Shown piece by piece: positions 30,997-50,783 of a stretch of 64,000 nt of DNA. The stretch is taken from NCBI RefSeq assembly GCF_001428825.1, contig NZ_LMIT01000009.1:104992-168991 (forward strand), given 5' to 3'. Position 1 is the first letter of the stretch; every line of letters begins with the position of its first letter. The notes beneath the pieces were generated by a model. The model was not told the origin of the DNA. It saw only the letters and a program-made list of their open reading frames with translations, and did no database searches. Both the position numbers and the translations under genes were made by a program. Origin of the DNA: Nocardioides sp. Root240. GTDB lineage: Bacteria > Actinomycetota > Actinomycetes > Propionibacteriales > Nocardioidaceae.

Positions 30997-31002
30997 CGGC
31001 GG

Positions 31003-31017
31003 GGCCCTCGGAGGGCC
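31003..31017 (+). terminator. short GC hairpin after efeB
   Basis: ggccctc-g-gagggcc, seven perfect base pairs, begins 7 bases after the efeB stop. No T tract follows, so termination strength is uncertain. A second small dyad, cgtgtt-aga-aacacg (31035-31049), lies between this hairpin and serA and could be an operator. Confidence 0.5.
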
Positions 31018-31127
31018 TGCCCACTCCGCGTTCACGTGTTAGAAACACGGTTCCCCTGGGGGTACTGTGGCGAGCGCGCACAGCGTCGTGCACGTCCCTG
31101 CCGCACGTTCCCGTGAAGGACTCCGCT

Positions 31128-35012: not shown

Positions 35013-35052
35013 GCCTGCATGAAGGGTGGGTTCGCTGGATAGGCTCGGGCCC

Positions 35053-36294
35053 ATGACCACCGACGGTTCCCAGGCCACCCCCGCTGCTTCGGCCCCCGAG
35101 CCCAGCCCGCTCGCACCCCCCGAGCCCGTCATCCAGCTCACCGCGCCCGAGGCGCCGGCCGTGGTGGTCGAGACCCAGGCGCCCAAGATGGCGCCCCAGG
35201 TCGACGCGGCGATGGTGCCCGAGCTCGACGCGAAGGTCGACAACTTCCTCACCTCGCTCACCGCGGCCAAGGCCGGCAGCCCGGAGTTCTCCGCGCAGGC
35301 CGAGAACGTCCGCACCATGGGCGACGCCGACATCCGCAAGGCCGCGGAGACGTCCAACCGGATGCTCGACAAGCCCGTCAACGCGCTCAAGCAGGGCGGC
35401 ATCGCCGAAGGCTCCGACGTCGGCAAGACGCTGCTCGCGCTGCGTCGTACGGTCGAGGACCTCGACCCGGGCCAGGCCACCGGCGTCAAGAAGTGGTGGG
35501 ACAAGCTGCCCTTCAACGACAAGGTCGAGGACTACTTCCGCAAGTACCAGTCCTCCCAGAGCCAGCTCAACGGCATCCTGCACTCCCTGCGCAGCGGCCA
35601 GGACGAGCTGACCCGCGACAACGTGGCGCTCAACCTCGAGAAGACCAACCTCTGGTCCGTCATGGGCCGCCTCAACCAGTACATCTACGTCGCCGAGAAG
35701 CTCGACGCGAAGCTGTCGGCCAAGATCGCCGAGCTCGAGCTGAGCGACCCCGAGACCGCCAAGACCCTGTCGCAGGACGTGCTGTTCTACGTGCGCCAGA
35801 AGCACCAGGACCTGCTCACCCAGCTCGCGGTGTCGATCCAGGCGTACCTCGCGATCGACATCATCATCAAGAACAACATCGAGCTCATCAAGGGCGTCGA
35901 CCGCGCGACCACGACGACCATCTCCGCGCTGCGGACCGCGGTCATCGTCGCCCAGGCGCTGAACAACCAGAAGCTGGTCCTCGACCAGATCACGGCGCTG
36001 AACTCGACGACCTCGACGATGATCCAGCGCACCTCGGAGATGCTCAAGGAGAACTCCGCGGCGATCCAGGAGCAGGCCGCGTCCTCGACGATCGGCATCG
36101 AGCAGCTCCAGGCCGCGTTCGCCAACATCTACGCCACGATGGACTCGATCGACGAGTTCAAGCTCAAGGCCCTCGACAACATGTCGACCACGATCGGCGT
36201 GCTCGAGAACGAGGTGCAGAAGTCGAAGGCCTACCTCGACCGGGTCCAGCAGCACGACGCGCGCAACGCCGCCGGCACGCTCGACATCGGCTGA
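35053..36294 (+). CDS. telA: TelA family toxic anion resistance protein
   Basis: 413 residues. After a Pro/Ala-rich N-terminus (residues 1-50), the TelA domain shows VRTMGDADIRKAAETSNRML, then WWDKLPFNDKVEDYFRKYQS, and a long helical body (QDLLTQLAVSIQAYLAIDI, NNIELIKGVDRATTTTISAL). TelA proteins are linked to tellurite and cell-envelope stress and often sit with Ter or XpaC genes. First gene of the ten-gene PknG cluster; start ATG at 35053 (an earlier ATG at 35026 lacks a good site). Confidence 0.93.
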   Translation: MTTDGSQATPAASAPEPSPLAPPEPVIQLTAPEAPAVVVETQAPKMAPQVDAAMVPELDAKVDNFLTSLTAAKAGSPEFSAQAENVRTMGDADIRKAAETSNRMLDKPVNALKQGGIAEGSDVGKTLLALRRTVEDLDPGQATGVKKWWDKLPFNDKVEDYFRKYQSSQSQLNGILHSLRSGQDELTRDNVALNLEKTNLWSVMGRLNQYIYVAEKLDAKLSAKIAELELSDPETAKTLSQDVLFYVRQKHQDLLTQLAVSIQAYLAIDIIIKNNIELIKGVDRATTTTISALRTAVIVAQALNNQKLVLDQITALNSTTSTMIQRTSEMLKENSAAIQEQAASSTIGIEQLQAAFANIYATMDSIDEFKLKALDNMSTTIGVLENEVQKSKAYLDRVQQHDARNAAGTLDIG

Positions 36295-36326
36295 CGGGGA
36301 GACGCAGGGGACAGGACGCGTTTCGG

Positions 36327-36845
36327 GTGGGGCTGAAGACGTGGTGGCGCGGCCGGAGGGACGGTGGCGCGCAGGAGCAGGCGTACGTCGTACCGGCGGC
36401 GCCGACCGAGCAGGACATCCGTGCTGCCCTCAACCAGGTCCACGCCATGCTCACCAGCAACAACGCACCGCCGGTGGTGATCGCGCGCGTCGAACGGATC
36501 GCCCGCACGATCAACCAGACCCTGCCGCGGCTGAGCCAGCTCGGGCTCGGCAGCGAGGAGAGCTACTCGGTCGTCGCCACGGCCACCGACTACCTGCCCG
36601 AGGCACTGCAGTCGTACCTCCGCCTGCCGCGTGACTGGGCGGACACGCGGCCGATCGACGGCCGCAAGACCGCCCTGCTGATCCTCATCGAGGCGCTCGA
36701 GCTGCTGGGCCTGACGATGGACAAGATCCTCGATGCCGCCAACCGTGCCGACGCGCAGGCCCTGATCGCGCACAGCCGGTTCCTCGACGCCAAGTTCGGC
36801 CACTCCTCGACCGGTGGCCCCGACCTGACCCTGGGAGCGCCATGA
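36327..36845 (+). CDS. XpaC-like small protein next to TelA
   Basis: 172 residues from a GTG at 36327 (acagga upstream). Helical; VVIARVERIARTINQTLPRL is followed by SVVATATDYLPEALQSYLRL, and it ends with ALIAHSRFLDAKFG. The spacing of a Y-L-P-x-x-L-x-x-Y helix and a terminal L-x-x-K/R-F helix resembles XpaC, the usual TelA partner in Firmicutes; similarity is seen only by eye. It overlaps the AAA+ gene by 4 bases (ATGA). Confidence 0.8.
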   Translation: MGLKTWWRGRRDGGAQEQAYVVPAAPTEQDIRAALNQVHAMLTSNNAPPVVIARVERIARTINQTLPRLSQLGLGSEESYSVVATATDYLPEALQSYLRLPRDWADTRPIDGRKTALLILIEALELLGLTMDKILDAANRADAQALIAHSRFLDAKFGHSSTGGPDLTLGAP

Positions 36846-38413
36846 GCACCCTTGCCGAGGCGCTCGACGCCCTGGTGGCCCTCGCCCGCGACGCGGGCCT
36901 CGACGAGGCTGCCGCACGGGCCGAGGGCGAGGCCGTCGCGGCCACCGTCTCCGAGCGTTCCCGCGGTGCGTTCGTCACCTGGTCCGAGCAGACCGGGCGT
37001 GCGGTCTCCGCCGAGGAGCACCAGCTCGCGGCCAAGCGCGGCAACCGGTTCCGTGCCGGCCCGACGCCGCTGATGGCCCAGCTCCTCCTGGCGAAGTCCG
37101 CTGCTTCGGCCGGGTACGCCGGCGCGCTCGCCGACGTCGCCCTCGCCGGCGCCCGCCTCGGCGAGCCCGGCCCCGAGGCCCTCGGGGCCGCCACCACCGT
37201 GACCACCGCCCAGCTCGGCGGCGGAGCGGCCGGCCTGACCCCGCCCGGCGGGGGACCGGGCGCCTTCGACCTGCCGGTGCGCCAGCCGGTACCGGGCCTC
37301 GGCGACGAGATGCTCGACCAGGTGCGCCGCGTCGGGGAGCAGGTGCGCCGCCAGCTCAGCGCCATCGGCGGAGCCGACCCCTCGGTGGTTGAGGTGCGAG
37401 GCGCCCCGGCGCCGAGCCTCGAAACCTCCGAAGCGCCGCGCACCCAGGCCGCCGAACCGGAGACGCCCGCGGCCGAGCCCGCGAAGGACCCCGAGCCGAC
37501 GAAGACGGTCGAGGAGCTGCTGGCCGAGCTCGACGCCCTGGTCGGTCTCGCCAACGTCAAGGGTGAGATCCACCGCCAGGCCGCCGTACTGCGGGTGGAG
37601 GGGCTGCGGAAGAAGGCCGGCCTCGAGAGCCCGACCATCACCCGACACCTCGTCTTCAACGGCAACCCGGGCACCGGCAAGACCACCGTCGCCCGCTTGG
37701 TCGCCGGGATCTACCGCGCGCTCGGCCTCCTCACCAAGGGCCAGCTGATCGAGGTCGACCGGTCCGAGCTGGTGGCGGGCTACCTCGGCCAGACCGCGGC
37801 CAAGACCGCCGAGGTCGTGGCGTCCGCCGAGGGCGGCGTGCTGTTCATCGACGAGGCGTACTCGCTCTCCGGCGACCAGTACGGCAAGGAGGCCATCGAC
37901 ACCCTGGTGAAGGAGATGGAGGACAAGCGCGAGGACCTCGTCGTCATCGTCGCCGGGTACCCCCTCCCGATGGCCATCTTCATCTCGGAGAACCCGGGCC
38001 TGGAGAGCCGCTTCCGCACCACCATCGACTTCTCCGACTACACCGACGACGAGCTCGCCGACATCTTCGCCTCGATGGTCGGCGGCGCCGACTACGACGC
38101 CGGCGAGCCGGTCCTCGCCCGCCTGCGCGAGATCCTCGCCGGCACCGAGCGCGGGCCGTCCTTCGGCAACGCCCGGTTCGTCCGGAACCTGATGGAGGCC
38201 GCCATCGGCCGCCACGCCTGGCGGCTGCGCGACGTCGCCGAGCCCACCCTCGAGCAGCTGCGCACCCTCGAGCCCGCGGACCTGGTCGTCGACCCCAACG
38301 ACCAGCCCGCCGCGCCCGCTGCCGCGGAGGGTGAGGTCGTCCCGCCCGCGGATGCCCCACCGGCCGAGCCGGTCGACCCCTTTGTCGCCGCCCCCGAGGA
38401 GGAGTCGGAATGA
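36842..38413 (+). CDS. CbxX/CfxQ-type AAA+ ATPase
   Basis: 523 residues. The N-terminal 210 are an unassigned helical region and a Pro/Ala linker; part of the linker (VVEVRGAPAPSLETSE, near residue 182) is encoded by a dispersed repeat. The AAA+ core follows: LVGLANVKGEIHRQAAVLRV, Walker A FNGNPGTGKTTVARLVAG, Walker B GGVLFIDEAYSLSGDQYGKE, and sensor region VIVAGYPLPMAIFISENPGL, all as in CbxX/SpoVK-like remodelling ATPases. A Pro/Glu-rich tail ends the protein. Overlaps GlnX-like by 4 bases. Confidence 0.93.
   Translation: MSTLAEALDALVALARDAGLDEAAARAEGEAVAATVSERSRGAFVTWSEQTGRAVSAEEHQLAAKRGNRFRAGPTPLMAQLLLAKSAASAGYAGALADVALAGARLGEPGPEALGAATTVTTAQLGGGAAGLTPPGGGPGAFDLPVRQPVPGLGDEMLDQVRRVGEQVRRQLSAIGGADPSVVEVRGAPAPSLETSEAPRTQAAEPETPAAEPAKDPEPTKTVEELLAELDALVGLANVKGEIHRQAAVLRVEGLRKKAGLESPTITRHLVFNGNPGTGKTTVARLVAGIYRALGLLTKGQLIEVDRSELVAGYLGQTAAKTAEVVASAEGGVLFIDEAYSLSGDQYGKEAIDTLVKEMEDKREDLVVIVAGYPLPMAIFISENPGLESRFRTTIDFSDYTDDELADIFASMVGGADYDAGEPVLARLREILAGTERGPSFGNARFVRNLMEAAIGRHAWRLRDVAEPTLEQLRTLEPADLVVDPNDQPAAPAAAEGEVVPPADAPPAEPVDPFVAAPEEESE
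37386..37428 (+). repeat. 43-bp dispersed repeat inside the AAA+ coding sequence
   Basis: tggttgaggtgcgaggcgcc followed by ccggcgccgagcctcgaaacctc. The reverse complement of the intergenic copy at 51974-52015 differs only by a two-base gap. Here it is translated in frame as part of the flexible linker between the N-terminal and AAA+ domains, so the insertion was tolerated. The central ggcgccccggcgcc is itself a near dyad. Confidence 0.85.
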
Positions 38414-39681
38414 GCCAGACCGCCAGCCCCCAGGCGGCCCCACCGCCCCCGGCCGCCGCGCCCGCGCCGGCCGCTCCTGCGACAGCGACCCGCGCCGGAA
38501 CCGGCCACGTCGACACTCCTGGCCTGCTGAACCGCTGGCAGCTGATCGGGATGAGCGTCGCGATCGTGTTCGGGCTGCTGAGCGCGTTCGTGCAGTTCCT
38601 CGGCTGGCAGTCCGACGGCCGCGCGGCCGAGGACACCAAGCAGCTCCAACGGGTGCAGGAGATCCAGTCGTCGCTCCTGCGGGCCGACGCCCTCGCCACG
38701 AACGCCTTCCTGGTGGGCGGCTTGGAGAAGCAGCGCGCGACGTACGACGAGGAGATCAACACTGTCCTGCGGGAGATCACGAACGCTGCTGACGCCCAGC
38801 CGGCGGACCGCGAGGTGCTCGGGGAGCTCAACGTCGCGGTGGGCGACTACACGAGAGCGGTGGCCGACGCGCGGAGCAACAACCGTCAGGGATTCCCCGT
38901 CGGTGCGGAGTACCTCAGCGGCGCAAGCACGCAGCTGCGTGCGGACGCGACCCCTATCCTCAGCGCACTCGTCAAGGCCAATACCGAGCGCGCCGAGGGC
39001 TCGATGGACGGTCAGCACCCCTTCTGGCTGCTGCTGATCGGGCTGCTCGCGCTCGCTGGTCTCTTGTGGCTCAACCAGCAGCTCGCCCAGCACTTCCGTC
39101 GACGGCTCAACAAGGGAATCGCCGTCGCGGCTGCAATCGTGTTGGTCGTCACGGTCATCGGAGTCGTCGGCGCCTGGATCCGCGACAGCTCGAACGACAC
39201 CCTCCGCGACGGCGACCTGGCCCTTGCCATCTCGCAGGCGAAGGCCCGCACGGCTGCCAATGACGCCAAGGCGAACGAGAGCCTCGCGCTGATCAAGCGC
39301 GGCTCCGGTGCGGTGTACCTGGAGGAGTGGGAGGGGTCGGCGACGAACGTCGAGCGTTCGCTGCGTCGCGACACCGGTGAGTCCTGGAACGACTACGTCG
39401 CGGTCTACCGAGAGATCCGCAAGCTCGACGACGGCGGGAACTGGGAGAAGGCACGCGATCTCGCCACGACATCCGCCGCCAGCGGGTCGTCGAAGCCGCT
39501 GGACGACTTCGACAAGGCCTCGGACCAGATCGTGAAGGCAGCGAGCGGCCACGTTGGGCACGACCTGCGCAGCGGTCGTGACGTGGCGCTCGCCATCAGC
39601 ATCTTCAGCCTGCTGCTCGGCATAGGGGCCGCACTGTTCGTCTCCCGAGGTATCGGCGAGCGACGGAGGGAGTTCTCGTGA
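38410..39681 (+). CDS. glnX: GlnX-like four-TM sensor protein
   Basis: 423 residues. A Pro/Ala cytoplasmic N-terminus (1-40) is followed by four membrane helices: LIGMSVAIVFGLLSAFVQFL, PFWLLLIGLLALAGLLWLNQ, IAVAAAIVLVVTVIGVVGAW and ALAISIFSLLLGIGAALFVS. Between helices 1-2 and 3-4 are helical extracellular domains like four-helix chemosensors (QLQRVQEIQSSLLRADALAT). The order glnX-glnH-pknG is that of mycobacteria, where GlnX is thought to receive ligand-bound GlnH and signal to PknG. ATGA overlap upstream, GTGA overlap downstream. Confidence 0.87.
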   Translation: MSQTASPQAAPPPPAAAPAPAAPATATRAGTGHVDTPGLLNRWQLIGMSVAIVFGLLSAFVQFLGWQSDGRAAEDTKQLQRVQEIQSSLLRADALATNAFLVGGLEKQRATYDEEINTVLREITNAADAQPADREVLGELNVAVGDYTRAVADARSNNRQGFPVGAEYLSGASTQLRADATPILSALVKANTERAEGSMDGQHPFWLLLIGLLALAGLLWLNQQLAQHFRRRLNKGIAVAAAIVLVVTVIGVVGAWIRDSSNDTLRDGDLALAISQAKARTAANDAKANESLALIKRGSGAVYLEEWEGSATNVERSLRRDTGESWNDYVAVYREIRKLDDGGNWEKARDLATTSAASGSSKPLDDFDKASDQIVKAASGHVGHDLRSGRDVALAISIFSLLLGIGAALFVSRGIGERRREFS

Positions 39682-40646
39682 AGTCTGTCCGCCTGTCCCG
39701 TGCCATGGTCGGGGTCATGGTCGCGGGAGGCCTGTTCATGAGTGCCTGCGGCTATGACGCGACTGTGGTGCCCGAAGCGAAGGCACCCGCGACGACGTCC
39801 GGGTCCGCGATCAAGCCCGTGGAGTGCGACAACGCGACCCAGTCGTATCAACCGAGCAACGACGCGGCAGCGGCGCGCCGCGAGCTCCTCAACCCCGACC
39901 GGCTGGTCGTCGGTGTCTCCGCGGACACCTATCAGCTCGGCTGGGCCAACCCCTTCGACGACAGCCGGATCCAGGGCTTCGACATCGACGTCGCCAAGGC
40001 CGTCGCCGACGCCCTCGGTGTGAAGCTCCAGCTGCGCGTCATCAGTGCAGCAGACCGTCCCACGCTGCTCGGTGCGAAGACCGACGGCGAAGCGCACGAG
40101 CAGGAGATCGACCTCGTCGCCCGCAACTACACGATGAACTGCACGCGCTGGACCCAGATCGGCTTCTCGGCCGTGTACTACAACGCCACGCAGAAGGTGC
40201 TGGTCCGTAAGGACGACGTCGGCGACTTCGAGAAGAGGGGGGTGGCTTCTCTGGCGGGCAAGGACGTGTGTGCGCCGGCAGGCTCGACGAGCATCGACAA
40301 CATCAAGGAGATCCAACCCGATGTCGAGGCGGTCCCGGCGGCGAACCACACCGGCTGCCTCGTGAAGTTCCAGCAGGGTGAGGTCGACGCCATCACCGGC
40401 GACGACACGGTCCTCGCCGGCTTGGCGGCGCAGGACCCGTACGCGGTCGTGCCGGACCAGCAGAAGCTGACCGACGAGCCCTACGGCATCGGCGCCAACA
40501 AGGGCGACAAGGACCTCATCGCCTTCGTCAACTCCGTCCTCGAGCAGCGCCGCAGCAACGGCGAGTGGCAGAAGTCCTACGACAAGTGGCTCAAGCCCTA
40601 CCTCGGCAACGCCACTGCCCCCGCCCCGACGTACGGCCGCCGGTGA
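39678..40646 (+). CDS. glnH: GlnH-like amino-acid binding lipoprotein
   Basis: 322 residues from a GTG. Signal peptide with lipobox FMSAC (Cys24). The solute-binding fold (SBP family 3) is clear: LVVGVSADTYQLGWANPFDD, IQGFDIDVAKAVADALGVKL, GKDVCAPAGSTSIDNIKEI and VDAITGDDTVLAGLAAQDPY, ending EWQKSYDKWLKPYLG. No ABC permease or ATPase lies nearby, which fits a sensing role with GlnX and not transport. The mycobacterial homologue binds Asp/Glu/Asn; ligand here unproven. Confidence 0.92.
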   Translation: MKSVRLSRAMVGVMVAGGLFMSACGYDATVVPEAKAPATTSGSAIKPVECDNATQSYQPSNDAAAARRELLNPDRLVVGVSADTYQLGWANPFDDSRIQGFDIDVAKAVADALGVKLQLRVISAADRPTLLGAKTDGEAHEQEIDLVARNYTMNCTRWTQIGFSAVYYNATQKVLVRKDDVGDFEKRGVASLAGKDVCAPAGSTSIDNIKEIQPDVEAVPAANHTGCLVKFQQGEVDAITGDDTVLAGLAAQDPYAVVPDQQKLTDEPYGIGANKGDKDLIAFVNSVLEQRRSNGEWQKSYDKWLKPYLGNATAPAPTYGRR

Positions 40647-41773
40647 CCGTGCAACAAGCCACCGCCACGTCCCCCACCGCCCCCGGCAAGCTCGGGGACG
40701 CGCTGGACCCTGCGGCGATCCAGACCTACCTCGGAGAGCTCGACACCTGGCTCCGGGTACGACGCTCCGAGCTCGACGAGCTCGACCGGGCCGCGCTCGG
40801 GGCGGGCCGCGGGGGAGAGCTGGCCGGCGACATGTCGCTCGCGCTGGCGCTGTGGAAGGCGATCTCCGACCGCTACCAGCTCGTCTTCGCGACATGGGAC
40901 GGCGGCCGGGTGCTCCAGCAGGAGCGGGAGCGGATCTCGGCGCTGGTCTGGGGCCGGCTCGACGGCGCGACGGAGCTGCCGGGCGGGCTGGCGGTTTCGC
41001 TGCCGGAGGCGGGCCGGTTGTGCGATGCGCTCACCGGGCAGCTGCGCACCCGGCTCTCGCTGGCCCCGGACGCCGATCGGTCGGCGGCGCGGATCCGCGA
41101 CCTGCGGGCGCAGCTGGAGCGGATCCGCGACCAGGTCGGCCTGGAGCCGGCCAACAGCCGCGACGCCGCGATCGCCACGCTGGCCGGGCTGATGAGCAGG
41201 CTCGAGGCGCTGACGGCGAAGGCCGAGCGCGGCGGTGACGTCGGCGGGATGCTCGGTCCCCTCGAGACCGAGGCGACGACCTTCGAGCGCGACCTGATCG
41301 TCGGCAACGCGCGGCGCCGTGACGCCCGCAGCAAGGTCCTCTCGGCACGCGAGCTGCGGGCCGACCTGGAGGCCCGCGAGGCCGCGCTGGCCAAGCTGGC
41401 GCAGACCTGCGTGGACACCGTCGACCCTGCGCCCCGGTACGCCGTGCCCGACGTCGACCTGCTCGGCCCGGTGCCGGTGACGCCCGACGAGATCGAGCCC
41501 TACCTCCAGCGCCTCGACCGTGTGTCCCAGGCGATGGAGGTCGCGCAGCACGCCTACTCCGCGGCGCTCGAGGAGCACACGCAGCTGGTCGGCCTGCTCG
41601 ACGGTTACGTCACCAAGGCCCGCGCCTCCGGTGTCGCCGGCCACCCCGACCTCGCCGAGAGCGAGCGCGCCGCCCGTGCGCTGCTCGAGCGCCGGCCCTG
41701 CCCGATGGTGGTGGCGCGGCAGCTCGTCACGACCTACCAGACCTGGTTGTCCTCGACCAAGGAGACGAAGTGA
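40643..41773 (+). CDS. unrecognised helical/coiled-coil protein before PknG
   Basis: 376 residues from a GTG overlapping the glnH stop. Almost wholly helical and rich in Ala, Leu, Arg, Glu: AIQTYLGELDTWLRVRRSEL, ARIRDLRAQLERIRDQVGLE, MSRLEALTAKAERGGDVGGM, ARELRADLEAREAALAKLAQ, and a C-terminal VARQLVTTYQTWLSSTKE. No membrane segment, signal or catalytic motif. Tight coupling on both sides suggests a structural partner or adaptor of the GlnH-PknG pathway. I do not know a family for it. Confidence 0.82.
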   Translation: MTVQQATATSPTAPGKLGDALDPAAIQTYLGELDTWLRVRRSELDELDRAALGAGRGGELAGDMSLALALWKAISDRYQLVFATWDGGRVLQQERERISALVWGRLDGATELPGGLAVSLPEAGRLCDALTGQLRTRLSLAPDADRSAARIRDLRAQLERIRDQVGLEPANSRDAAIATLAGLMSRLEALTAKAERGGDVGGMLGPLETEATTFERDLIVGNARRRDARSKVLSARELRADLEAREAALAKLAQTCVDTVDPAPRYAVPDVDLLGPVPVTPDEIEPYLQRLDRVSQAMEVAQHAYSAALEEHTQLVGLLDGYVTKARASGVAGHPDLAESERAARALLERRPCPMVVARQLVTTYQTWLSSTKETK

Positions 41774-44190
41774 GCGGACCCGCCTGCACCCAGCCCGGCT
41801 GCACCGGCAGCATCCTCGACGGGTACTGCGACGTCTGCGGCATGCCCGGCGACGCCCCGGCCCAGCCAGCGGCTCCCGCGGCGCCCGCCACCCCCGCGGC
41901 CAGCATGCCCGCCGGCGTCTCCGCCGCCAGCACGTCCAAGCGCGCCCCGGCGGTCAACGGCGACGCCTGCCCGCAGCCCGGCTGCAGCGGCAAGATCCTC
42001 GACGGGTACTGCGACGTCTGCGGATCGCCCGCACTGCCCGGTGCCCGTGTCGCCGAGGCCGCCGCCATCGCCGAGTCCCAGCCCCTCTCGGGCCGTGAGG
42101 GCACGTCCGCGACCGCGGCGAGCCGGGTGCAGTCGGCGGCGATCGGCTCCAAGCGGGCCGGTACGACGGGCAGCTACGCCACGCGTCGTACCCGCACCGG
42201 GTCGCAGCGGATGCGCTCGGCCCGCCTCGGCGCCGGCCTCACCGTCGTCCCGCCCGCGCCGCCGGTCGACGCGGCGAAGGCGATCATGGCCGACCCGCAG
42301 GTCCCCGAGGACAAGCGCAGCTGCTCGAAGTGCGGCAACGCCGTCGGTCGCAGCATCAACGGCCAGCCCGGGCGCAGCGAGGGCTTCTGCCCCAACTGCG
42401 GCCAGCAGTTCTCCTTCACCCCGAAGCTGGTGCAGGGCGACCTCGTCGCGGGCCAGTACGAGGTGGCCGGCGCCCTCGCGCACGGTGGTCTCGGCTGGAT
42501 CTATCTCGCCCGCGACCGCAACGTCTCCAACCGCTGGGTCGTGCTCAAGGGCCTGCTCAACTCCGGCGACCCCGACGCGCTGGCCGCGGCGATCGCGGAG
42601 CAGCAGTTCCTCGCCCAGGTCGAGCACCCGCTGATCGTCGAGATCTACAACTTCGTGACCCACGAGGGCGCGGGCTACATCGTCATGGAGTACGTCGGCG
42701 GCAAGTCCCTCAAGCAGATCCTCAAGCAGCGGATGTCGGCCAACAACGGCGAGTACGACCCGCTCCCGGTGGACCAGGCACTGGCCTACATCCTCGAGCT
42801 GCTGCCGGCCTTCCAGTACCTCCACGACCTCGGCCTGGTCTACTGCGACTTCAAGCCCGACAACATGATCCAGGTCGGCGACGCGATGAAGCTGATCGAC
42901 CTCGGCGGCGTGCGCCGCATCGACGACGACGAGTCGGCGATCTACGGCACGGTCGGCTACCAGGCACCCGAGGTCGCCGAGATCGGCCCGTCGCTCGCCT
43001 CCGACATCTACACGATCGGCCGCACGCTCGTCGTCCTCACGATGGAGTTCCGCGGCTACCAGGGCACCTACCTGCACAGCCTGCCGCCGGTCGACGCGAC
43101 CCCGCTGTTCCAGCAGAACGACTCGCTCTACCAGCTGATCGCCAAGTGCTGCGCGCCCGACCCGGCCGACCGGTTCGCCTCCGTCGACGAGATGCGCTCG
43201 CAGGTCCTCGGCGTGCTGCGCGAGGTGGTCGCCCGCAAGCGCCAGGGTACGGCGACCACGTCGGCGGCCTCGGTCCTGTTCGAGTCGCCGGCGACGGCCC
43301 GCCCGATCACCGAGTGGAGTCAGCTGCCCAAGCTGCGGCAGGACACGACGGACCCTCAGTACGCCTGGCTGTCCTCCATCGGCTCCGACGACCCGAAGAA
43401 GCGGCTCGCGGACCTCCAGCAGGCCCCCGAGGACAGTGCCGAGGTGTGGCTCGCCCGCGCCGCGGCGGCGCTCGACCTCGGCGACCCGGTGACGGCCAAG
43501 GCGCACGCGCAGTCGCTGCTCGGCGACGACCCGTGGGAGTGGCGGGCGCTGTGGATCGAGGGCCTCGCGGCCGTCCAGGCCCAGGACTGGGAGACGGCGA
43601 AGGCGTCGTTCAACGCGGTCTACCAGCAGGTGCCCGGCGAGCTCGCGCCCAAGCTGGCGCTGGCCTTCGCCTGCGAGCGCGGCCAGCTGCCCGAGGTTGC
43701 GGAGGGGCTCTACCAGGTGTGCGCGTCGACGGATGCGGCCTACGTCCCGCCGGCGGCCTTCGGCATGGCCCGGGTGCGCGCGGAGCGCAAGGACGTGGTC
43801 GGTGCGGTCGCCGCGCTCGACCTGGTCCCGAACACCAGCCGCGGCTACACCGAGAGCCGTCAACAGCGGGCCGAGGTGCTGCTCTCCGGTGGCGTCCGCG
43901 ACCTGACGGTGCTCGACCAGGCGATGCGCACCATCGAGTCCTCCAGCGTCGACGGCCAGACTCGCCAGCGCTACACGGTGCGGATCCTCAGCGAGGCGCT
44001 GCCGGTCGTCACCAGCGGCCCCAAGCTGCCCGACGGCGCCCGGATCGGTTCGGTCGCGGCCACCGAGATCGGTGTGCGCGACGGGCTCGAGAACGCGCTG
44101 CGGATGCTGGCGCGCGACGCGATCGACCTCAAGGAGCGGGTGACCCTGGTCAACCAGGCCAACGCCGTCCGGAACTGGAGCCTCACGTGA
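41770..44190 (+). CDS. pknG: PknG-type Ser/Thr kinase with duplicated N-terminal Cys4 modules
   Basis: 806 residues. Order: two near-identical C-x4-C-x8-C-x2-C modules (Cys6-Cys23 and Cys67-Cys84, both ending ILDGYCDVCG), a linker, the rubredoxin-like pair CSKCG...CPNCG (about 180-212), the kinase (GALAHGGLGWIYLARDRNVS, Lys in WVVLKGLLN, catalytic YCDFKPDNMI, metal LIDLGGVRRI) and a TPR domain from about 520 to the end. This is PknG architecture; PknG phosphorylates FHA protein GarA to tune glutamate metabolism. The duplicated ILDGYCDVCG modules are an addition to mycobacterial PknG. Confidence 0.95.
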   Translation: MSGPACTQPGCTGSILDGYCDVCGMPGDAPAQPAAPAAPATPAASMPAGVSAASTSKRAPAVNGDACPQPGCSGKILDGYCDVCGSPALPGARVAEAAAIAESQPLSGREGTSATAASRVQSAAIGSKRAGTTGSYATRRTRTGSQRMRSARLGAGLTVVPPAPPVDAAKAIMADPQVPEDKRSCSKCGNAVGRSINGQPGRSEGFCPNCGQQFSFTPKLVQGDLVAGQYEVAGALAHGGLGWIYLARDRNVSNRWVVLKGLLNSGDPDALAAAIAEQQFLAQVEHPLIVEIYNFVTHEGAGYIVMEYVGGKSLKQILKQRMSANNGEYDPLPVDQALAYILELLPAFQYLHDLGLVYCDFKPDNMIQVGDAMKLIDLGGVRRIDDDESAIYGTVGYQAPEVAEIGPSLASDIYTIGRTLVVLTMEFRGYQGTYLHSLPPVDATPLFQQNDSLYQLIAKCCAPDPADRFASVDEMRSQVLGVLREVVARKRQGTATTSAASVLFESPATARPITEWSQLPKLRQDTTDPQYAWLSSIGSDDPKKRLADLQQAPEDSAEVWLARAAAALDLGDPVTAKAHAQSLLGDDPWEWRALWIEGLAAVQAQDWETAKASFNAVYQQVPGELAPKLALAFACERGQLPEVAEGLYQVCASTDAAYVPPAAFGMARVRAERKDVVGAVAALDLVPNTSRGYTESRQQRAEVLLSGGVRDLTVLDQAMRTIESSSVDGQTRQRYTVRILSEALPVVTSGPKLPDGARIGSVAATEIGVRDGLENALRMLARDAIDLKERVTLVNQANAVRNWSLT

Positions 44191-45356
44191 CCTGTCCGTC
44201 CTGCGGATCGGCGGTCGCCGAGGGAGCCCGGTTCTGCGAGGGCTGCGGGGCGCAGCTCGGCGCCGCCGAGACCACGCCCGCCCCGGGCCCCGCCCCGGTC
44301 CCGGCCGCCGCGGCCGCCGCCACCGACCACCCGCTCGGTGACGCGCCGATCAGCGCGCCGACCCGCAAGCCCGCCGGCACCCTGCCGGACCCGGTGCCCA
44401 CCCCCGGACGTCGTCCCTGCGCCGAGTGCGGGGGAGAGGTCGGGCCCGACCTCTACTGCCTGGCCTGCGGCACGAAGGCGCCCAGCGAGCGCGACCACTT
44501 CGAGGAGCAACCGGCGCCGTGGGTCGCCGGCGTCTGCGACAAGGCACTGAAGAAGAACCGCAACGAGGACGCGATGGCGCTGCTCGCCAGCCCGGAGGCC
44601 GGTACCCGCGCCGTGCTCGTGGTGCTGGACGGCGTCTCGAACTCCATCGACTCCGACGTCGCCTCGCTCGCCGGCGCCCGCGCCGCCCGCGAGGTGCTGC
44701 GGGTGCCCCTGCCGGCCGGCATGGGTACGCCGGAGAGCCGCACCGCCGCCGTCTCCAGGGTCTTCGCGAACGCCGCCGCCGCGGCCAACACCGCGATCAT
44801 CGCGGTGACCGACCCGGACTCCCCGAACCCGGCGTCGGCCACCTTCACCACGGCCGTGCTCGAGGGCAACCGGATCACCTGGGCCAACATCGGCGACTCG
44901 CGCTCGTACTGGATCCCGGATGCCGGCGAGCCCGTCCAGCTCACGACCGACGACTCTGTCGCGCAGTCGCAGATCGCCACCGGGGTCGCGCGCGAGGTGG
45001 CCGAGAACGGGCCGCAGGCGCACGCGATCACCAAGTGGCTGGGCCGCGACTCCGAGGACTTCGTGCCGACGGTCGGCAGCCTCGAGGTCTCCGAGCCGGG
45101 CTGGCTGCTGGCCTGCTCGGACGGCCTGTGGAACTACGCCTCGACGCCCGAGGCGATCGCCGCGCAGGTGCGTGGCGCGGGCACGTCCGAGCCGCTCGCG
45201 CTCGCGCTGGCCCTGGTCGCCTTCGCCAATGCGTCGGGCGGCCACGACAACATCACCGCAGCGGTGGCCCGGGTGGACCTCGGGCAGAATGACAGTGCCA
45301 ACGACGGGACCCCGACGGGTGCGGGCGTCCCAGGAGGAGAGCCGAGCAATGGCTGA
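44187..45356 (+). CDS. PP2C-type phosphatase with N-terminal zinc ribbons
   Basis: 389 residues from a GTG overlapping the pknG stop. Two zinc-ribbon pairs open it: CPSCGSAVAEGARFCEGCG (residues 3-21) and CAECGGEVGPDLYCLACG (about 80). The PP2C core then shows KNRNEDAMAL, LVVLDGVSNSIDSDVASLAG (first metal Asp), WANIGDSRSYWI, LLACSDGLWNYAS and GGHDNITAAVARVD. The first motif is DGVSN, lacking the usual DG-H/M-GG, as in TerY-linked PP2C proteins. Probably opposes PknG. Confidence 0.92.
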   Translation: MTCPSCGSAVAEGARFCEGCGAQLGAAETTPAPGPAPVPAAAAAATDHPLGDAPISAPTRKPAGTLPDPVPTPGRRPCAECGGEVGPDLYCLACGTKAPSERDHFEEQPAPWVAGVCDKALKKNRNEDAMALLASPEAGTRAVLVVLDGVSNSIDSDVASLAGARAAREVLRVPLPAGMGTPESRTAAVSRVFANAAAAANTAIIAVTDPDSPNPASATFTTAVLEGNRITWANIGDSRSYWIPDAGEPVQLTTDDSVAQSQIATGVAREVAENGPQAHAITKWLGRDSEDFVPTVGSLEVSEPGWLLACSDGLWNYASTPEAIAAQVRGAGTSEPLALALALVAFANASGGHDNITAAVARVDLGQNDSANDGTPTGAGVPGGEPSNG

Positions 45357-46635
45357 GTTCAGCGCGAGCGTCTACCAGAACGAGTTCCTGCCCGACGGCG
45401 GGACCGACGTCAACGCGATCGTGACCGTCACCTGCACGGGCGCCGGCACGGCCGGCCAGTCCGGATCGGGCGACGCGGGCGAGATCATCATCGTCGACAC
45501 CTCGGGCTCGATGGCCGCCCCGACGATGGCCGCTGCCAAGGACGCCGCCCAGGCCGCGCTCGCCGAGATCGTCGACGGCACCTGGTTCGCCGTGATCGCC
45601 GGCGCCGACCGCGCGATGCTGGCCTTCCCGCAGGTCTCCAGCGGCCCGGGCATGGTCCGGATGGACACCGCCAGCCGTCAGGCCGCGTCCGACGCGATCA
45701 GCCGCTTCGTCGGCAGCGGCGGTACGGCGATCAGCACGTGGCTCGACCTGGCCGGCCAGCTCTTCGCGTCGGTCCCGGAGATCACCCAGCGCCACGTGCT
45801 GCTGCTGACCGACGGCGAGAACCGCGAGCGCCCCGGCCGACTCGACGAGTCGATCAACCGCGCCACCGGCTACTTCCAGGCCGACTGCCGCGGCGCCGGC
45901 ACCGACTGGCAGGTCGCCGAGATCCGCCGGATCGCGCAGGCCCTGCTCGGCACCGTCGACATCATCCCGAGCCCCGCCGAGATGAAGGCGCAGTTCCAGG
46001 AGATCATGCGCAAGGCCATGTCCCGCGGTGTCGCCGACGCCTCGCTGCGGGTGTGGACGCCGCAGGGCGCCGAGGTGCTGTTCGTGCGCCAGGTGTCGCC
46101 GACCGTGGAGGACCTGACCAGCCGTCGTACGCCGGTCAACCCGCTCACCGGCGACTACCCGACCGGTGCGTGGGCCGACGAGTCCCGCGACTACCACATC
46201 GCGATCCGCGTCCCGGCCAAGGCGATCGGCCAGGAGCAGCTCGCCGCGCGGGTCCAGCTCGCGCTCGGCGCCGACGTCGTCACGCAGGGCCTGGTCAAGG
46301 CGACCTGGTCGAGCAACTCCGAGCTGACCACCCGGATCGACCAGCAGGTCGCCCACTACACGGGGCAGGCCGAGCTCGCGCAGATGATCCAGGAGGGCCT
46401 GGCCGCGAAGGCCTCCGGCGACGAGGCGACCGCGACCACCAAGCTCGGTCGCGCCGTCCAGCTCGCCGCCGAGACCGGCAACGACGAGGCGACCAGCAAG
46501 CTCAAGAAGGTCGTCGACGTCGAGAACGAGGAGACCGGCACCGTCCGGCTCAAGCGGGCGGTCGAGAAGGCCGACGAGATGGCCCTCGACACCGCCTCCA
46601 CCAAGACCACCCGGATCCGCAAGGAGCCCACATGA
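45349..46635 (+). CDS. von Willebrand factor A domain protein
   Basis: 428 residues; ATG at 45349 inside the end of the PP2C gene, preceded by caggaggaga. The vWA MIDAS motif is IIIVDTSGSMAAPTM (D-x-S-x-S), with Thr in SGGTAISTWLDLAG and Asp in LLLTDGENRER. C-terminal to it are a beta domain (DYHIAIRVPAKAIGQEQLA) and a helical tail of charged repeats (TTKLGRAVQLAAETGNDEAT). Kinase, PP2C and vWA together match the TerY-P type triad known from comparative genomics. Confidence 0.9.
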   Translation: MAEFSASVYQNEFLPDGGTDVNAIVTVTCTGAGTAGQSGSGDAGEIIIVDTSGSMAAPTMAAAKDAAQAALAEIVDGTWFAVIAGADRAMLAFPQVSSGPGMVRMDTASRQAASDAISRFVGSGGTAISTWLDLAGQLFASVPEITQRHVLLLTDGENRERPGRLDESINRATGYFQADCRGAGTDWQVAEIRRIAQALLGTVDIIPSPAEMKAQFQEIMRKAMSRGVADASLRVWTPQGAEVLFVRQVSPTVEDLTSRRTPVNPLTGDYPTGAWADESRDYHIAIRVPAKAIGQEQLAARVQLALGADVVTQGLVKATWSSNSELTTRIDQQVAHYTGQAELAQMIQEGLAAKASGDEATATTKLGRAVQLAAETGNDEATSKLKKVVDVENEETGTVRLKRAVEKADEMALDTASTKTTRIRKEPT

Positions 46636-47417
46636 GCAGCGTGTGCCCGTCCGGGCACGACTCGGCGTCCGACGACTACTGCGACGTCTGCGGCCTGCCC
46701 ATCCCGGCCGGCTCCTCGACGCCTGCGCCCGCCGCCGACGCGCCCGCACCGGCCGACCCGCCGGCCGCCGAGCCCGCCCCGGCGACGACGGCGTGCCCGA
46801 ACTGCCAGGCGAGCAACCCGCCCAACGCGCTGTTCTGCGAGGCCTGCGGCTACGACTTCACCACCGGCTCGATGCCGCGCCCGGTCACCCCGCCGACCAT
46901 CGAGTCCGTGCTCGACCTCGGCGCGCCGTCCAGCGGTGCTGCCGCGGACGCCGGTGCCTCACCAGCGGCCACCGGCCCGGTCGCACCGGCCACGCCGGTC
47001 GCGCCGCCACTCACCGACGGGTGGGTGGCCGAGGTCTGGATCGACCCGGACTGGTACGCCGACCAGGAGTCCATCGACCCGCTGCCCTCCGCGGGCGTGC
47101 CGGTCGTCGTACCCCTGCGGACGACGTCGATCCTCGTCGGCCGCACCTCGCGCAGTCGCGGCATCCACCCGGACATCGACCTCGGCGCCGACAACGGCAT
47201 CAGCCGGCGCCACTGCCAGCTGACGACCGACGGCACCCGCTGGTGGGTCGAGGACCTGGGCTCGTCCAACGGCTCCTACCTCGGCTCGGCCCTCGGCCCG
47301 CTGCCGAAGACGCCGGTGCCGCCGGGGGAGAAGCGCGAGATCGGCCCCGACGACCGGGTCTACCTCGGTGCGTGGACGCGGATCGTGATCCGGAAGGCGC
47401 AGCCCGGCGAGGTGTGA
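46632..47417 (+). CDS. FHA domain protein with N-terminal Cys4 module and zinc ribbon
   Basis: 261 residues; ATGA overlap with the vWA gene. CPSGHDSASDDYCDVCG (residues 5-21) echoes the C-terminal half of the PknG module, then CPNCQASNPPNALFCEACG, a Pro/Ala linker, and a C-terminal FHA domain: SILVGRTSRSRGIHPDIDLG, then NGISRRHCQLT and WVEDLGSSNGSYLG (Gly-Arg, Ser-Arg-His and Ser-Ser-Asn-Gly all conserved). It reads phospho-Thr. GarA's N-terminal ETTS phosphosite is not seen. Last gene of the cluster. Confidence 0.92.
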   Translation: MSSVCPSGHDSASDDYCDVCGLPIPAGSSTPAPAADAPAPADPPAAEPAPATTACPNCQASNPPNALFCEACGYDFTTGSMPRPVTPPTIESVLDLGAPSSGAAADAGASPAATGPVAPATPVAPPLTDGWVAEVWIDPDWYADQESIDPLPSAGVPVVVPLRTTSILVGRTSRSRGIHPDIDLGADNGISRRHCQLTTDGTRWWVEDLGSSNGSYLGSALGPLPKTPVPPGEKREIGPDDRVYLGAWTRIVIRKAQPGEV

Positions 47418-49174: not shown

Positions 49175-49364
49175 GAGAGGCCACCTCGCCGCGGTGATTG
49201 CGGCGTTTCCCGATACCGCGTCGGGCTTCTCGATCCAACTGAAGTCCTGGCGCATCTCCGATCGCACCGCGGCGGGCCCACCGGCCCCACATCGCGCGAT
49301 CCGCATGACAGTCGTAGTCGAGCTCTTGTGAGAACCACGAGCTGACGCCCCACCCGCCGCGGTG
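49159..49364 (+). promoter_or_regulatory. structured leader with four mutually pairing arms before leuB
   Basis: Arm 1 ccgcggcg (49159-49166) pairs with arm 2 cgccgcgg (49187-49194), with an inner ggcc/ggcc helix (49168-49171/49179-49182). Arm 2 extended, cgccgcggtg (49187-49196), pairs over 10 bases with arm 3 caccgcggcg (49265-49274). Arm 3 extended, caccgcggcggg (49265-49276), pairs over 12 bases with arm 4 cccgccgcggtg (49353-49364). Arm 1 overlaps the end of the leader peptide. This 1:2, 2:3, 3:4 ladder is the attenuator logic, though no T tract follows arm 4. The rest of 48986-49447 shows no gene besides the leader peptide. Confidence 0.65.
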
Positions 49365-49447
49365 GGAGAGGCCAGGACCGACCGCAGTCCTTCCACGTCA
49401 TCTCAGTGTCACTCAGCCACTCACCAGCTCAGACGGAGAACCCAGCG

Positions 49448-49609
49448 ATGTTCACCACCACGACGCGCCCCAGCCAGTACCGCGACGCCCAGGAGTGGGG
49501 TCCGGCCAAGCACGACCCCGAGCACCCGTACCACCTCGACGCCCTCGAGACGCCGGCCTACGGGACTGCCCTGCGAGACGGGGACGACGCCTTCCCGGAC
49601 GACAACTAA
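49448..49609 (+). CDS. 53-residue hypothetical protein before leuB
   Basis: ATG at 49448 after cggagaaccc; encodes a hydrophilic, Asp/His/Pro/Tyr-rich peptide ([20 protein letters not shown] ... [14 protein letters not shown] ... DDAFPDDN). No signal or membrane helix. Only 10 bases separate its stop from the leuB ATG, so it is co-transcribed. No family recognised; codon use looks ordinary for the genome (strong third-position GC), which supports it being real. Confidence 0.6.
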
Positions 49610-49619
49610 CGTTTTCGCC

Positions 49620-50711
49620 ATGACCGCCACCCCCTTCACGCCCGCGACCGGACAGGTCGACCTCGCCGTCATCCCCGGAGACGGGATCGGTCCCGAGGTC
49701 ACCGCCGAGGCGCTCAAGGTCCTCGAGGTCGCTGCGCCCGCCGAGCTGAAGTTCGCGCGGACGCAGTACGACCTGGGTGCCGAGCGCTACCTCGCCACCG
49801 GCGAGGTGCTCCCGGAGAGCGTGCTGGAGGAGATCCGCGGCCAGGACGCGATCCTGCTCGGTGCCGTCGGCGGCAAGCCGAACGACCCGAACCTGCCGCC
49901 GGGCATCCTCGAGCGAGGCCTGCTGCTCAAGCTGCGATTCGAGCTCGACCACTACGTCAACCTGCGTCCCTCGCGCCTGTACCCGGGCTCGGTCGCGCCG
50001 CTGTCCGACGCGGTGCTCGGCAAGGGCGAGATCGACTTCGTGGTCGTCCGTGAGGGCACCGAGGGCCCCTACACCGGCAACGGCGGCGCGCTGCGCGTCG
50101 GTACGCCGGCCGAGGTCGCCACCGAGGTGTCGGTCAACACCGCGTTCGGCGTGGAGCGGGTCATCCGCGACGCCTTCGCCCGCGCCCAGAAGCGCCCGCG
50201 CAAGAAGCTCACCCTGGTCCACAAGACCAACGTGCTGGTCAACGCCGGCTCCGTCTGGTGGCGGCTGTTCCAGGAGGTGGCGAAGGAGTTCCCCGACGTC
50301 ACGACCGACTACAGCCACATCGACGCCGTCATGATCTACCTGACGACCGACCCGCAGCGCTTCGACGTCATCGTCACCGACAACCTGTTCGGCGACATCG
50401 TCACCGACCTGGCCGCCGCGATCACCGGCGGCATCGGCCTGGCCGCGTCCGGCAACGTGAACCCCGACCGCACCGCGCCGTCGATGTTCGAGCCGGTCCA
50501 CGGCTCGGCGCCCGACATCGCCGGCCAGCTCATCGCCGACCCGACCGCCGCGATCCTCTCCGGCGCGCTCCTGCTCGACCACCTCGGCCACCCCGAGGCG
50601 GCGGCCCGCATCGAGACCGCGGTCCTCGCGGACCTCGAGGCGCGCGAGCCGGGGACGCAGCGTCGTACCCCCGAGGTGGGCGACGCGATCGCCGCACGAG
50701 TAGCCGGCTGA
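49620..50711 (+). CDS. leuB: 3-isopropylmalate dehydrogenase
   Basis: 363 residues. Oxidatively decarboxylates 3-isopropylmalate in leucine synthesis. [20 protein letters not shown] opens the beta-decarboxylating dehydrogenase fold; substrate residues lie in [20 protein letters not shown] (R-x4-L-x-L-R type) and [12 protein letters not shown]; metal Asp in [19 protein letters not shown]; adenine loop [14 protein letters not shown]. The ATG at 49620 is chosen because upstream in-frame codons are unlike the family. Confidence 0.96.
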
Positions 50712-50783
50712 GCCTGCATCGGAGATTCCTCCGCACGCGGGCAGACGGCCCATTCCCGACCCGCGTTAACGAGGACTAACCTG

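Follow-up and report, generated by a model that had tools for sequence, protein, structure and literature searches.

Why does a pknG gene of Nocardioides sp. Root240 lie in a run of ten closely packed genes, when published excerpts (PMC6069109, PMC9769921, PMC8546545) describe glnX-glnH-pknG as a three-gene operon acting on GarA/OdhI, and could the kinase have a further target among its neighbours? We addressed this in a window of 64,000 nucleotides, the whole stretch of DNA analysed, and in related loci of other genomes.

Gene content of the locus

An ORF check of the window places ten genes on one strand between positions 35053 and 47417, in the order listed by the earlier note:

35040..35045, +: -10-like hexamer TAGGCT, 7 bases 5' of the telA ATG (from sequence)
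35053..36294, +: telA, toxic-anion-resistance family protein, 413 aa (PF05816, 307 bits)
36327..36845, +: xpaC-like small helical protein, 172 aa (named from gene order only)
36842..38413, +: CbxX/SpoVK-type AAA+ ATPase, 523 aa (PF00004, PF17866; Walker A and B present)
38410..39681, +: glnX, four-TM signal transducer, 423 aa (NF058618, 223 bits against a cut-off of 250; hydropathy)
39678..40646, +: glnH, predicted amino-acid-binding lipoprotein, 322 aa (PF00497; PDB 6h1u)
40643..41773, +: all-helical protein of no known family, 376 aa (predicted model)
41770..44190, +: pknG, kinase with rubredoxin and TPR domains, 806 aa (PF16919, PF00069, PF16918)
44187..45356, +: PP2C-type phosphatase with two N-terminal zinc ribbons, 389 aa (PF13672, DZR)
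45349..46635, +: vWA protein with metal-site motif and VWA_3_C domain, 428 aa (PF13768, PF18571; alignment)
46632..47417, +: FHA protein with two N-terminal zinc ribbons, 261 aa (PF00498, PF13240)

Successive genes are spaced by +32, -4, -4, -4, -4, -4, -4, -8 and -4 bases, so that eight of the nine junctions overlap by 4-8 bases, as had been claimed. The ten genes are predicted to form one conserved, co-transcribed unit, of which the TAGGCT hexamer is a possible leaderless promoter. A site of the same kind occurs at two other loci (L098, L100) and the related CAGACT at two more (L034, L101); no -10-like hexamer was seen at the listed starts of the remaining loci.

Profile matches bear out the earlier labels for telA, the CbxX AAA+ protein, pknG, PP2C, vWA and FHA. 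TelA scores ten-fold over its cut-off of 30 bits, and PknG exceeds the cut-off of all three of its models (PF16919, 88.8 bits; PF00069, 101.8 bits; PF16918, 178.4 bits), retains the catalytic motifs and has 2pzi as its best PDB match. The phosphatase matches PP2C_2 (PF13672) and DZR and has the metal-site motifs; the vWA protein has its metal-site motif and matches VWA and VWA_3_C; the FHA motifs are present in the last protein. The ATPase, which carries an AAA lid, scores 272 bits against spore_V_K, 224.6 against CbbX and 215.3 against EccA, in each case below the curated cut-off (459 for CbbX and 467 for EccA). The name xpaC-like fared less well: a gene does follow telA, and this position is the sole basis of the name, since its product has no match over cut-off in Pfam or NCBIfam and no XpaC match in either at E <= 0.01. 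Its predicted model (pLDDT 84) has no PDB match at E <= 0.001. The protein has 803 relatives at E <= 0.001, and the named ones among the best 120 of the 803 are mostly from Nocardioides. Similarly, the protein previously called coiled-coil is confidently predicted to be all-helical (pLDDT 93.7), and it belongs to no Pfam or NCBIfam family and has no PDB match at E <= 0.001.

Family profile tests place glnX and glnH next to pknG. The four-TM sensor of the earlier note agrees with four hydrophobic regions in GlnX, whose NF058618 score of 223.2 bits lies below the curated cut-off of 250, and the binding lipoprotein with the SBP_bac_3 match and lipobox-like Cys24 of GlnH. The best PDB match of GlnH is 6h1u, annotated as GlnH (E 1.5e-44). 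The Arg and Asp that hold the ligand carboxyl and amine are kept in the window protein, the Arg in 68/68 and the Asp in 67/68 sequences from families f1 and f11 and the named loci. The side-chain-contacting Trp232 of M. tuberculosis GlnH is His in the window protein, and specificity for Asp/Glu is therefore not assured; a recognisable GlnH was not found in six loci (L139, L141, L159, L167, L174, L189).

Zinc ribbons are common to the kinase, the phosphatase and the FHA protein:

41785..41838, +: PknG N-terminal zinc ribbon 1, ending in DGYCDVCG
41968..42021, +: PknG N-terminal zinc ribbon 2, ending in DGYCDVCG
44193..44246, +: PP2C zinc ribbon 1, CPSC...CEGC
44418..44468, +: PP2C zinc ribbon 2, CAEC...LYCLAC
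46644..46691, +: FHA protein zinc ribbon 1, CPSGH...DYCDVC
46794..46847, +: FHA protein zinc ribbon 2, CPNC...CEAC

In PknG the ribbons (residues 6-84) precede the rubredoxin cysteines (185-210), and the TPRs are C-terminal. Among the named loci, 58 of 60 PknG proteins have at least two ribbon-like matches (the rubredoxin counted), and at least one is present in 71/73 PP2C and 68/73 FHA proteins.

Conservation and layering of the gene order

The order is not unique to one strain, and the co-occurrence that the earlier note suggested looking for across actinobacterial genomes is there. Each of the 12 family genomes whose contig is long enough has all ten genes in order, and so do 43 of the 58 named loci with adequate flanks, from Cellulomonas, Kribbella, Promicromonospora, Kineosporia and others; the 43 include one (L115) whose cbxX match is of 43 bits only, and in named loci telA is often truncated where the examined stretch ends. 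All 43 retain glnX and glnH. The downstream neighbours SDR, methyltransferase, leuB and ilvE are present in only 3, 4, 4 and 4 of the 58 loci. The ten-gene order is thus more than chance, the downstream neighbours being rarely kept. The 4-base cbxX/glnX overlap persists in 47 of the 53 loci where both genes were found, TelA and PknG occur in the identical 15 of 149 family genomes, and the vWA family (E <= 1e-40) is found in 35 of 197 class genomes, all with PknG (E <= 0.001); the vWA match is a fragment in two of the 35 (G088, G153).

The claim that sensor, kinase, eraser, reader and ATPase are one unit holds in that the set is conserved and tightly packed, and needs amending in that it is layered. 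A seven-gene core (glnX, glnH, the helical protein, pknG, PP2C, vWA and FHA) extends to other families and one other class and stands without telA-xpaC-cbxX in families f17, f18 and f19 and that other class; the trio is an addition in one PknG clade. TelA without adjoining PknG occurs in other families. Six loci (L118, L144, L148, L169, L179, L183) have the vWA-FHA pair separated from some or all of the other genes. Two f18 loci (L239, L240) carry a diverged kinase, PP2C, vWA and FHA and a weakly matching helical protein, and glnX and glnH were not found in their examined stretch. In mycobacteria-like genomes glnX-glnH-pknG is all that remains, a state that probably arose by loss of the other genes. 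Because the ten-gene set is kept in order across many actinobacteria, the mycobacterial operon is probably what is left of a larger switch.

A candidate PknG target on the vWA tail

The C-terminal tail of the vWA protein resembles the PknG target site of GarA, for which the peptide SDEVTVETTSVFRADFL was taken from an excerpt of PMC8546545:

46573..46614, +: vWA C-terminal tail motif DEMALDTASTKTTR, candidate phospho-site resembling the GarA site

Within the set of ten proteins, the GarA-like pattern [DE]E[VILM]x[VILM][DE]TxS is confined to the vWA tail, and none of 2986 other ORFs contains it. Shuffling the vWA protein gave it 28 times in 200000, a figure that is optimistic because the pattern was written after the match had been seen. 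An S-[TV]-x-T motif lies near the vWA C-terminal end in 123 of 127 relatives; three of the four lacking it (L040, L049, L050, L080) are diverged f18 loci. In 7 of 120 sequences, all consistent with f18-type tails, Ala stands in place of the Thr that aligns with the GarA site, which leaves the later S-[TV]-x-T as the only near-universal motif.

We tentatively favour, at a little short of an even chance, a single unit in which a PknG-family kinase and its likely GlnX-GlnH sensor are joined by proteins predicted to read and erase a Thr mark on the vWA tail. An external amino acid would likely be bound by GlnH, and GlnX would likely relay this to the TPR domain of PknG, which likely phosphorylates the vWA tail in addition to GarA, encoded elsewhere. 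The FHA protein would then likely bind the phospho-tail and the PP2C likely take the mark off, with zinc ribbons and the helical protein tethering these proteins to one another. Where all ten genes are present, the vWA-FHA pair, once marked, may serve the CbxX-type ATPase as an adaptor, and the ATPase would remodel an assembly of TelA and XpaC at the envelope; nutrient supply would therefore set envelope-stress tolerance and 2-oxoglutarate flux. We infer this link to the PknG core from gene order and overlap, which are its whole basis, and likewise infer the envelope or metabolic output. Mycobacteria would have lost everything except the sensor-kinase part.

The principal alternative is that PknG acts via GarA only, as in mycobacteria and corynebacteria, with the cluster PP2C reversing the GarA mark and vWA, FHA, helical, CbxX, TelA and XpaC proteins being co-expressed neighbours with jobs of their own. 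A GarA relative (172.6 bits, cut-off 200) is indeed encoded elsewhere in the genome of the window, and one was found in each of the 30 genomes searched, among them genomes with all ten genes, so that a second target may be superfluous for PknG; Saccharopolyspora GarA carries phosphate at its ETTS site (excerpt of PMC12321487), and the published operon has three genes. However, the relative in the window's genome has TDATATIQF in place of the exact ETTS site, no vWA family member was found without PknG in the 197 class genomes, gene order is kept while the downstream flank varies, and three partners share zinc ribbons. We consider action via GarA only unlikely, if still a serious contender. The earlier note had set the FHA gene beside the known FHA substrate GarA; the gene is in the cluster, but since the GarA relative lies elsewhere its product is an additional FHA protein.

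Should the larger unit be the original form, a phosphatase, a reader and a second PknG substrate become nameable and open to experiment in harmless soil actinobacteria, the roles of two conserved orphan proteins (all-helical and xpaC-like) come within reach, and the TelA-XpaC pair would gain an upstream signal. More doubtful is the extended proposal that the mycobacterial operon descends from an older seven-gene writer/eraser/reader complex on the vWA tail, and that one clade wired its amino-acid-gated mark to a TelA-XpaC-remodelling AAA+ ATPase, so that nutrient sensing would directly govern envelope-stress tolerance; we regard this as possible and lean against it.

Relation to known systems

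The TerY-P triad comprises a vWA protein, a PP2C and a kinase with a C-terminal zinc ribbon (excerpt of PMC11090510), and the window likewise combines a zinc-ribbon kinase with PP2C and vWA genes in a single operon. In contrast to that triad, the kinase here is of PknG type, its ribbons are N-terminal and it has TPRs, and the operon also encodes GlnX, GlnH and an FHA protein. We reject an assignment to the TerY-P or Ter systems as defined, although the earlier note placed kinase/PP2C/vWA sets and TelA among Ter-type stress systems: TerD-family proteins gave 0 matches in the genome, and the kinase ribbons are N-terminal, not C-terminal. The looser version, a TerY-P-like stress or conflict module that took PknG and its sensor as kinase, with metal or envelope damage as signal and TelA-XpaC protection as output, would fit the three-part composition, the zinc ribbons, the envelope-stress role of TelA and the f18 loci in which glnX and glnH were not found. 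It is at odds with the same two observations, with the retention of glnX and glnH in the 43 ten-gene loci and with PADLOC, which gave nothing but kinase-type matches for PknG and none for the vWA, PP2C and FHA proteins, and we think it improbable. Actinobacterial sets beside GAP1-N2 GTPase systems (excerpt of PMC7159879), whose composition also speaks for such a module, likewise have adjoining kinase, PP2C and standalone vWA genes and zinc ribbons, but the ten genes include no GTPase and have the PknG sensor arm and FHA protein instead.

Chance juxtaposition of two operons, the seven-gene core and a telA-xpaC-cbxX trio serving a function of its own, is very unlikely: the core does occur without the trio and TelA apart from PknG, but the cbxX/glnX start overlap, the shared occurrence of TelA and PknG and a trio/core junction kept across many genera argue against it.

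For the trio, excerpts of PMC3498285 and PMC12791056 place the XpaC-TelA pair in the B. subtilis sigma-W regulon and TelA in Listeria nisin tolerance, and the latter excerpt calls the TelA-XpaC mechanism unknown. The xpaC-yaaN (TelA) envelope-stress operon and its Listeria counterpart described there also have TelA next to a small partner; unlike them, the window has the reverse order, a partner without sequence match, and an AAA+ ATPase and kinase unit joined on. CbbX and EccA share the AAA+ subfamily with the window ATPase, which scores far below both cut-offs.

A further close comparison is with glnX-glnH-pknG of mycobacteria and C. glutamicum, as given in the excerpts cited at the outset. 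The three families, their order and a GarA relative in the genome are the same. The window unit differs in its seven further genes, in the N-terminal zinc ribbons of PknG, which are absent from mycobacteria-like PknG, and in the altered side-chain pocket of GlnH, and its vWA tail may be an added target.

The ten-gene cluster and its conservation

The cluster and its flanks occupy the following parts of the window:

35053..47417, plus strand: ten-gene cluster, from the start of telA (first gene) to the end of the FHA gene (last gene)
30963-32714: serA-like flank
49362-51866: leuB-like/aminotransferase flank

The gene order is telA, an xpaC-like gene, cbxX, glnX, glnH, a gene for an all-helical protein, pknG, and genes for PP2C, vWA and FHA proteins; the last seven are referred to as the core and telA-xpaC-cbxX as the trio. 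Measured distances at successive junctions (+32, -4 six times, -8 and -4 bases) bear out the overlap at eight of the nine junctions given in the earlier note. Profiles from Pfam and NCBIfam matched TelA, a CbxX-type AAA+ protein, a GlnX-like protein with four TM segments, a GlnH lipoprotein, PknG, PP2C, vWA and FHA, and gave no family match for the second and sixth genes. Identification of the second gene as XpaC was rejected (no profile match, no PDB fold match); its name comes from position alone. The helical protein has a confidently predicted fold with no match in the PDB, so that its function cannot be read from the fold.

The genome measures 5.13 Mb, and its PknG is nearest to Nocardioides and Pimelobacter proteins among the named entries of the best 120 matches listed. 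The serA-like flank encodes a D-3-phosphoglycerate dehydrogenase; on the other side, leuB-like and class IV aminotransferase genes lie nearby only in four Nocardioides among 58 flanked named loci. At 28535-29725, ∼ 5 kb before the cluster, lies a gene for an imelysin (peptidase M75) that also has a cupredoxin-like domain and belongs to a metal-related family. TAGGCT lies 7 bases 5' of the telA ATG and might serve as a leaderless promoter, though it is suggestive only. A site of this kind precedes telA in loci L098 and L100 and the related CAGACT in L034 and L101; no comparable -10-like site was found at the listed telA starts of the remaining loci compared.

The ten genes recur together and in order across actinobacterial genomes. 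Within the family, PknG scored above the cut-off in 15 of 149 genomes (16 at E ≤ 0.001), which are related and do not represent independent events, and TelA was found in exactly the same 15. Twelve hold the ten genes complete and in order. At the other three loci (L102, L104 and L105) the contig ends within the cluster; L102 and L105 have the cluster genes that should lie on their contigs, and the short L104 carries glnH, the helical gene and pknG. Named genomes were scanned with the vWA alignment; of 590 confirmed relatives the top 80 were kept, a selection that leans to query-like vWA proteins. In this set 58 loci had at least 9 kb upstream and at least 0.7 kb downstream of the vWA gene; all were collinear for the genes present, and 43 had the ten genes in order (L115 with a weak cbxX match only, and telA often truncated at the edge of the compared stretch). 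The 43 include loci of Cellulomonas, Kribbella, Antribacter, Oerskovia, Cellulosimicrobium, Agreia, Promicromonospora, Kineosporia, Janibacter, Luteipulveratus and Nocardioides. Genes that lie downstream of the cluster in the window are present in just 3 or 4 of the 58, so the ten-gene order is not a matter of general synteny; this control concerns downstream flanks, the upstream serA side lying beyond the compared stretches. Overlaps are usual at most junctions (the cbxX/glnX starts overlap in 47 of 53 loci), the exceptions being telA/xpaC (5 of 50) and the 4-base form at PP2C/vWA (6 of 75).

Across the class, the PknG TPR domain profile matched 55 of 197 genomes at E ≤ 0.001 and 54 above the model cut-off. 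Sixty of the 73 PknG places listed outside the window, plus the window itself, gave 61 loci, which were scored with profiles from the window's proteins. All seven core genes are present in 30, and six of these (five from family f1, one from f11) add the trio to make ten genes in order. At f17 loci with the core set, glnX and glnH are placed behind the FHA gene. Eleven loci belong to f4, which we take to be mycobacteria-like, as we take f19 to be Streptomyces-like, from GarA and PknG sequences and genome size. Nine of them have glnX-glnH-pknG and two pknG alone, PP2C and vWA being found in none of the 11; two further f4 loci are likewise glnX-glnH-pknG. The remainder of the 61 are cut by contig ends, are second PknG copies or hold partial sets. 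The ten-gene unit proposed in the earlier note is therefore real and widespread, but it is layered rather than uniform, since f4 keeps glnX-glnH-pknG and the core also occurs without the trio.

Several loci depart from the ten-gene form. At L139, L141, L159, L167, L174 and L189 glnX is weak or strongly diverged and glnH is not recognisable, possibly reflecting a change of sensor; these are of Propionibacteriaceae and Mobilicoccus type and retain the rest of the unit. The vWA-FHA pair is separated from part or all of the other genes in L118, L144, L148, L169, L179 and L183. A single common extra gene between PP2C and vWA was rejected, because the inserted ORFs differ among genera (five loci, by eye); they are partly common to two Rathayibacter loci. 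In two genomes of f18 there is an additional set (L239:7778-15449 and L240:7792-15850) with a diverged PknG-like kinase (∼ 295 bits), PP2C, vWA, FHA and a weakly matching helical protein, and glnX and glnH were not found in these stretches. L238 and L241 have PP2C-vWA-FHA. The output part seems to work with other kinases.

Direction of change

The vWA family (E ≤ 1e-40) is present in 35 of the 197 class genomes, as a fragment in G088 and G153, and all 35 are also PknG-positive. PknG occurs without vWA in 20 genomes (14 of f4, plus G027, G037, G071, G110, G121 and G188), some of which have weak vWA matches or short contigs. Of 246 genomes sampled across the phylum, 17 had a PknG TPR match that reached the cut-off, and one genome only outside the class gave a strong match. 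The locus of this one genome, L237, encodes the helical protein (weak match), PknG, PP2C, vWA and FHA, adjoined by glnX and glnH in the opposite direction.

In a PknG tree rooted on a single sequence, that of L237, the mycobacteria-like three-gene group falls inside a clade with seven-gene families including f19 (support 0.989); the node pairing it with f17 has a support of only 0.317. The ten-gene-type sequences group with L177 and L115 in one clade (0.99). The simplest reading of the tree is that the mycobacteria-like line lost four core genes, unless the root falls on its own branch, and that the trio was gained once. TelA is present in 32 of the 197 class genomes and, in the 18 places examined outside the family, is not next to PknG. 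Some of these telA genes are accompanied by an xpaC-like gene and by one with weak similarity to vWA. In f17 (L229-L231), away from PknG, the genes after telA encode a vWA-like protein that matches weakly, with a signal-peptide-like start in L230, and an xpaC-like protein.

Sensor, vWA tail and zinc ribbons

Excerpts of PMC6069109 describe M. tuberculosis GlnH as binding the amine and carboxyl of its ligand through Arg169 and Asp250, with Trp232 contacting the side-chain. Among 68 GlnH sequences (16 of f1 and f11, 52 named), Arg169 is kept in all and Asp250 in 67. At the Trp232 position the window's protein has His, as do 49 of the 68; in f4 it is Trp in eight of nine rows, the ninth being a gap. 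The ligand is likely some amino acid. The sensing of external amino acids put forward earlier is consistent with the kept amine- and carboxyl-binding residues, but specificity for Asp/Glu is not assured, the side-chain contact being His in the window.

The vWA protein ends in a conserved tail. Of 127 vWA relatives from the compared loci, 120 were used first (> 540 bits and a sequence anchor), and the key S and T of the tail are present in all 120, mostly inside [DE]EMxL[DE]TxSTKT[TV]R, five or six residues from the C-terminal end. The other seven comprise six at ≤ 550 bits that lack the anchor or fall below the score limit, and one weak match; L039, L052 and L069 read DSTKT or DSTRT, whereas the diverged or weak relatives L040, L049, L050 and L080 lack the motif, giving 123 of 127 overall. 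The GarA-derived PknG substrate peptide is SDEVTVETTSVFRADFL (PMC8546545, in excerpt). A pattern devised after comparing the tail with this peptide, [DE]E[VILM]x[VILM][DE]TxS, occurs in the vWA tail alone among the ten cluster proteins, and in 28 of 200 000 shuffles of the window's vWA protein; 2986 other ORFs, many of them non-coding frames, gave no match. In 7 of the 120, Ala replaces the Thr that lines up with the GarA site, so the later S/T pair is the better candidate phospho-site.

The genome of the window encodes a GarA/OdhI relative outside the cluster (172.6 bits against a cut-off of 200), and all 30 genomes searched have one. Ten of the 30 (five of f4, four of f19 and one of f11) show ETT with S, T, G or A as the next residue; the relative in the window's genome reads TDATATIQF. 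We considered that the vWA tail replaces a target site lost from GarA and rejected it, because in ten-gene genomes the GarA relatives have different Thr-rich sites (STATI, DTTMSF, ETTISF). Probably the classical PknG-GarA branch persists, and the cluster would be a second branch beside it. Beyond mycobacteria-like genomes, GarA relatives often begin with a zinc ribbon like those of the FHA and PP2C proteins (L092, L195-L218).

The window's PknG begins with two ribbons, each ending DGYCDVCG, and its PP2C and FHA proteins have two zinc ribbons each. In the named loci, at least two ribbon-like matches, rubredoxin counted, were found in 58 of 60 PknG proteins, and at least one in 71 of 73 PP2C and 68 of 73 FHA proteins. 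Mycobacteria-like PknG has the rubredoxin pair and lacks the N-terminal ribbon. Since kinase, phosphatase and FHA protein all carry ribbons, writer, eraser and reader may share a docking partner. At the second PknG locus of f19 genomes (L039, L052 and L069) the vWA protein continues beyond the tail motif into a C-terminal zinc ribbon fused to it, which looks like a transfer of the docking tag to vWA.

Output and relation to known systems

From these features we infer a phospho-switch mechanism for the cluster. AAA+/vWA protein pairs are known, and together with the gene order they suggest that CbxX would act with the vWA protein. For the trio, an envelope role is plausible by analogy, because in Bacillus the sigma-W regulon includes xpaC-yaaN (PMC3498285, in part) and mutation of telA in Listeria raises sensitivity to nisin and tellurite (PMC12791056, in part).

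Other system labels did not fit. The affiliation with Ter-type systems suggested earlier falls, TerD being absent from the window's genome. The window's CbxX scores too low against the EccA model for type VII secretion. Anti-phage defence was rejected: in PADLOC, PknG matched only kinases in general and CbxX matched AAA+ models weakly, and there was no match for the other eight cluster proteins.

Published PknG work, in the portions consulted, presents glnX-glnH-pknG as a three-gene operon, an arrangement that PMC6069109 calls conserved and depicts in a figure, where some neighbour genes may be visible. Neither the seven- nor the ten-gene set is described in titles or abstract openings among the matches listed, subscription literature being mostly outside this scope. 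The nearest published concepts are the TerY-P triad (vWA, PP2C and a zinc-ribbon kinase) and sets of kinase-zinc ribbon, PP2C and vWA proteins.
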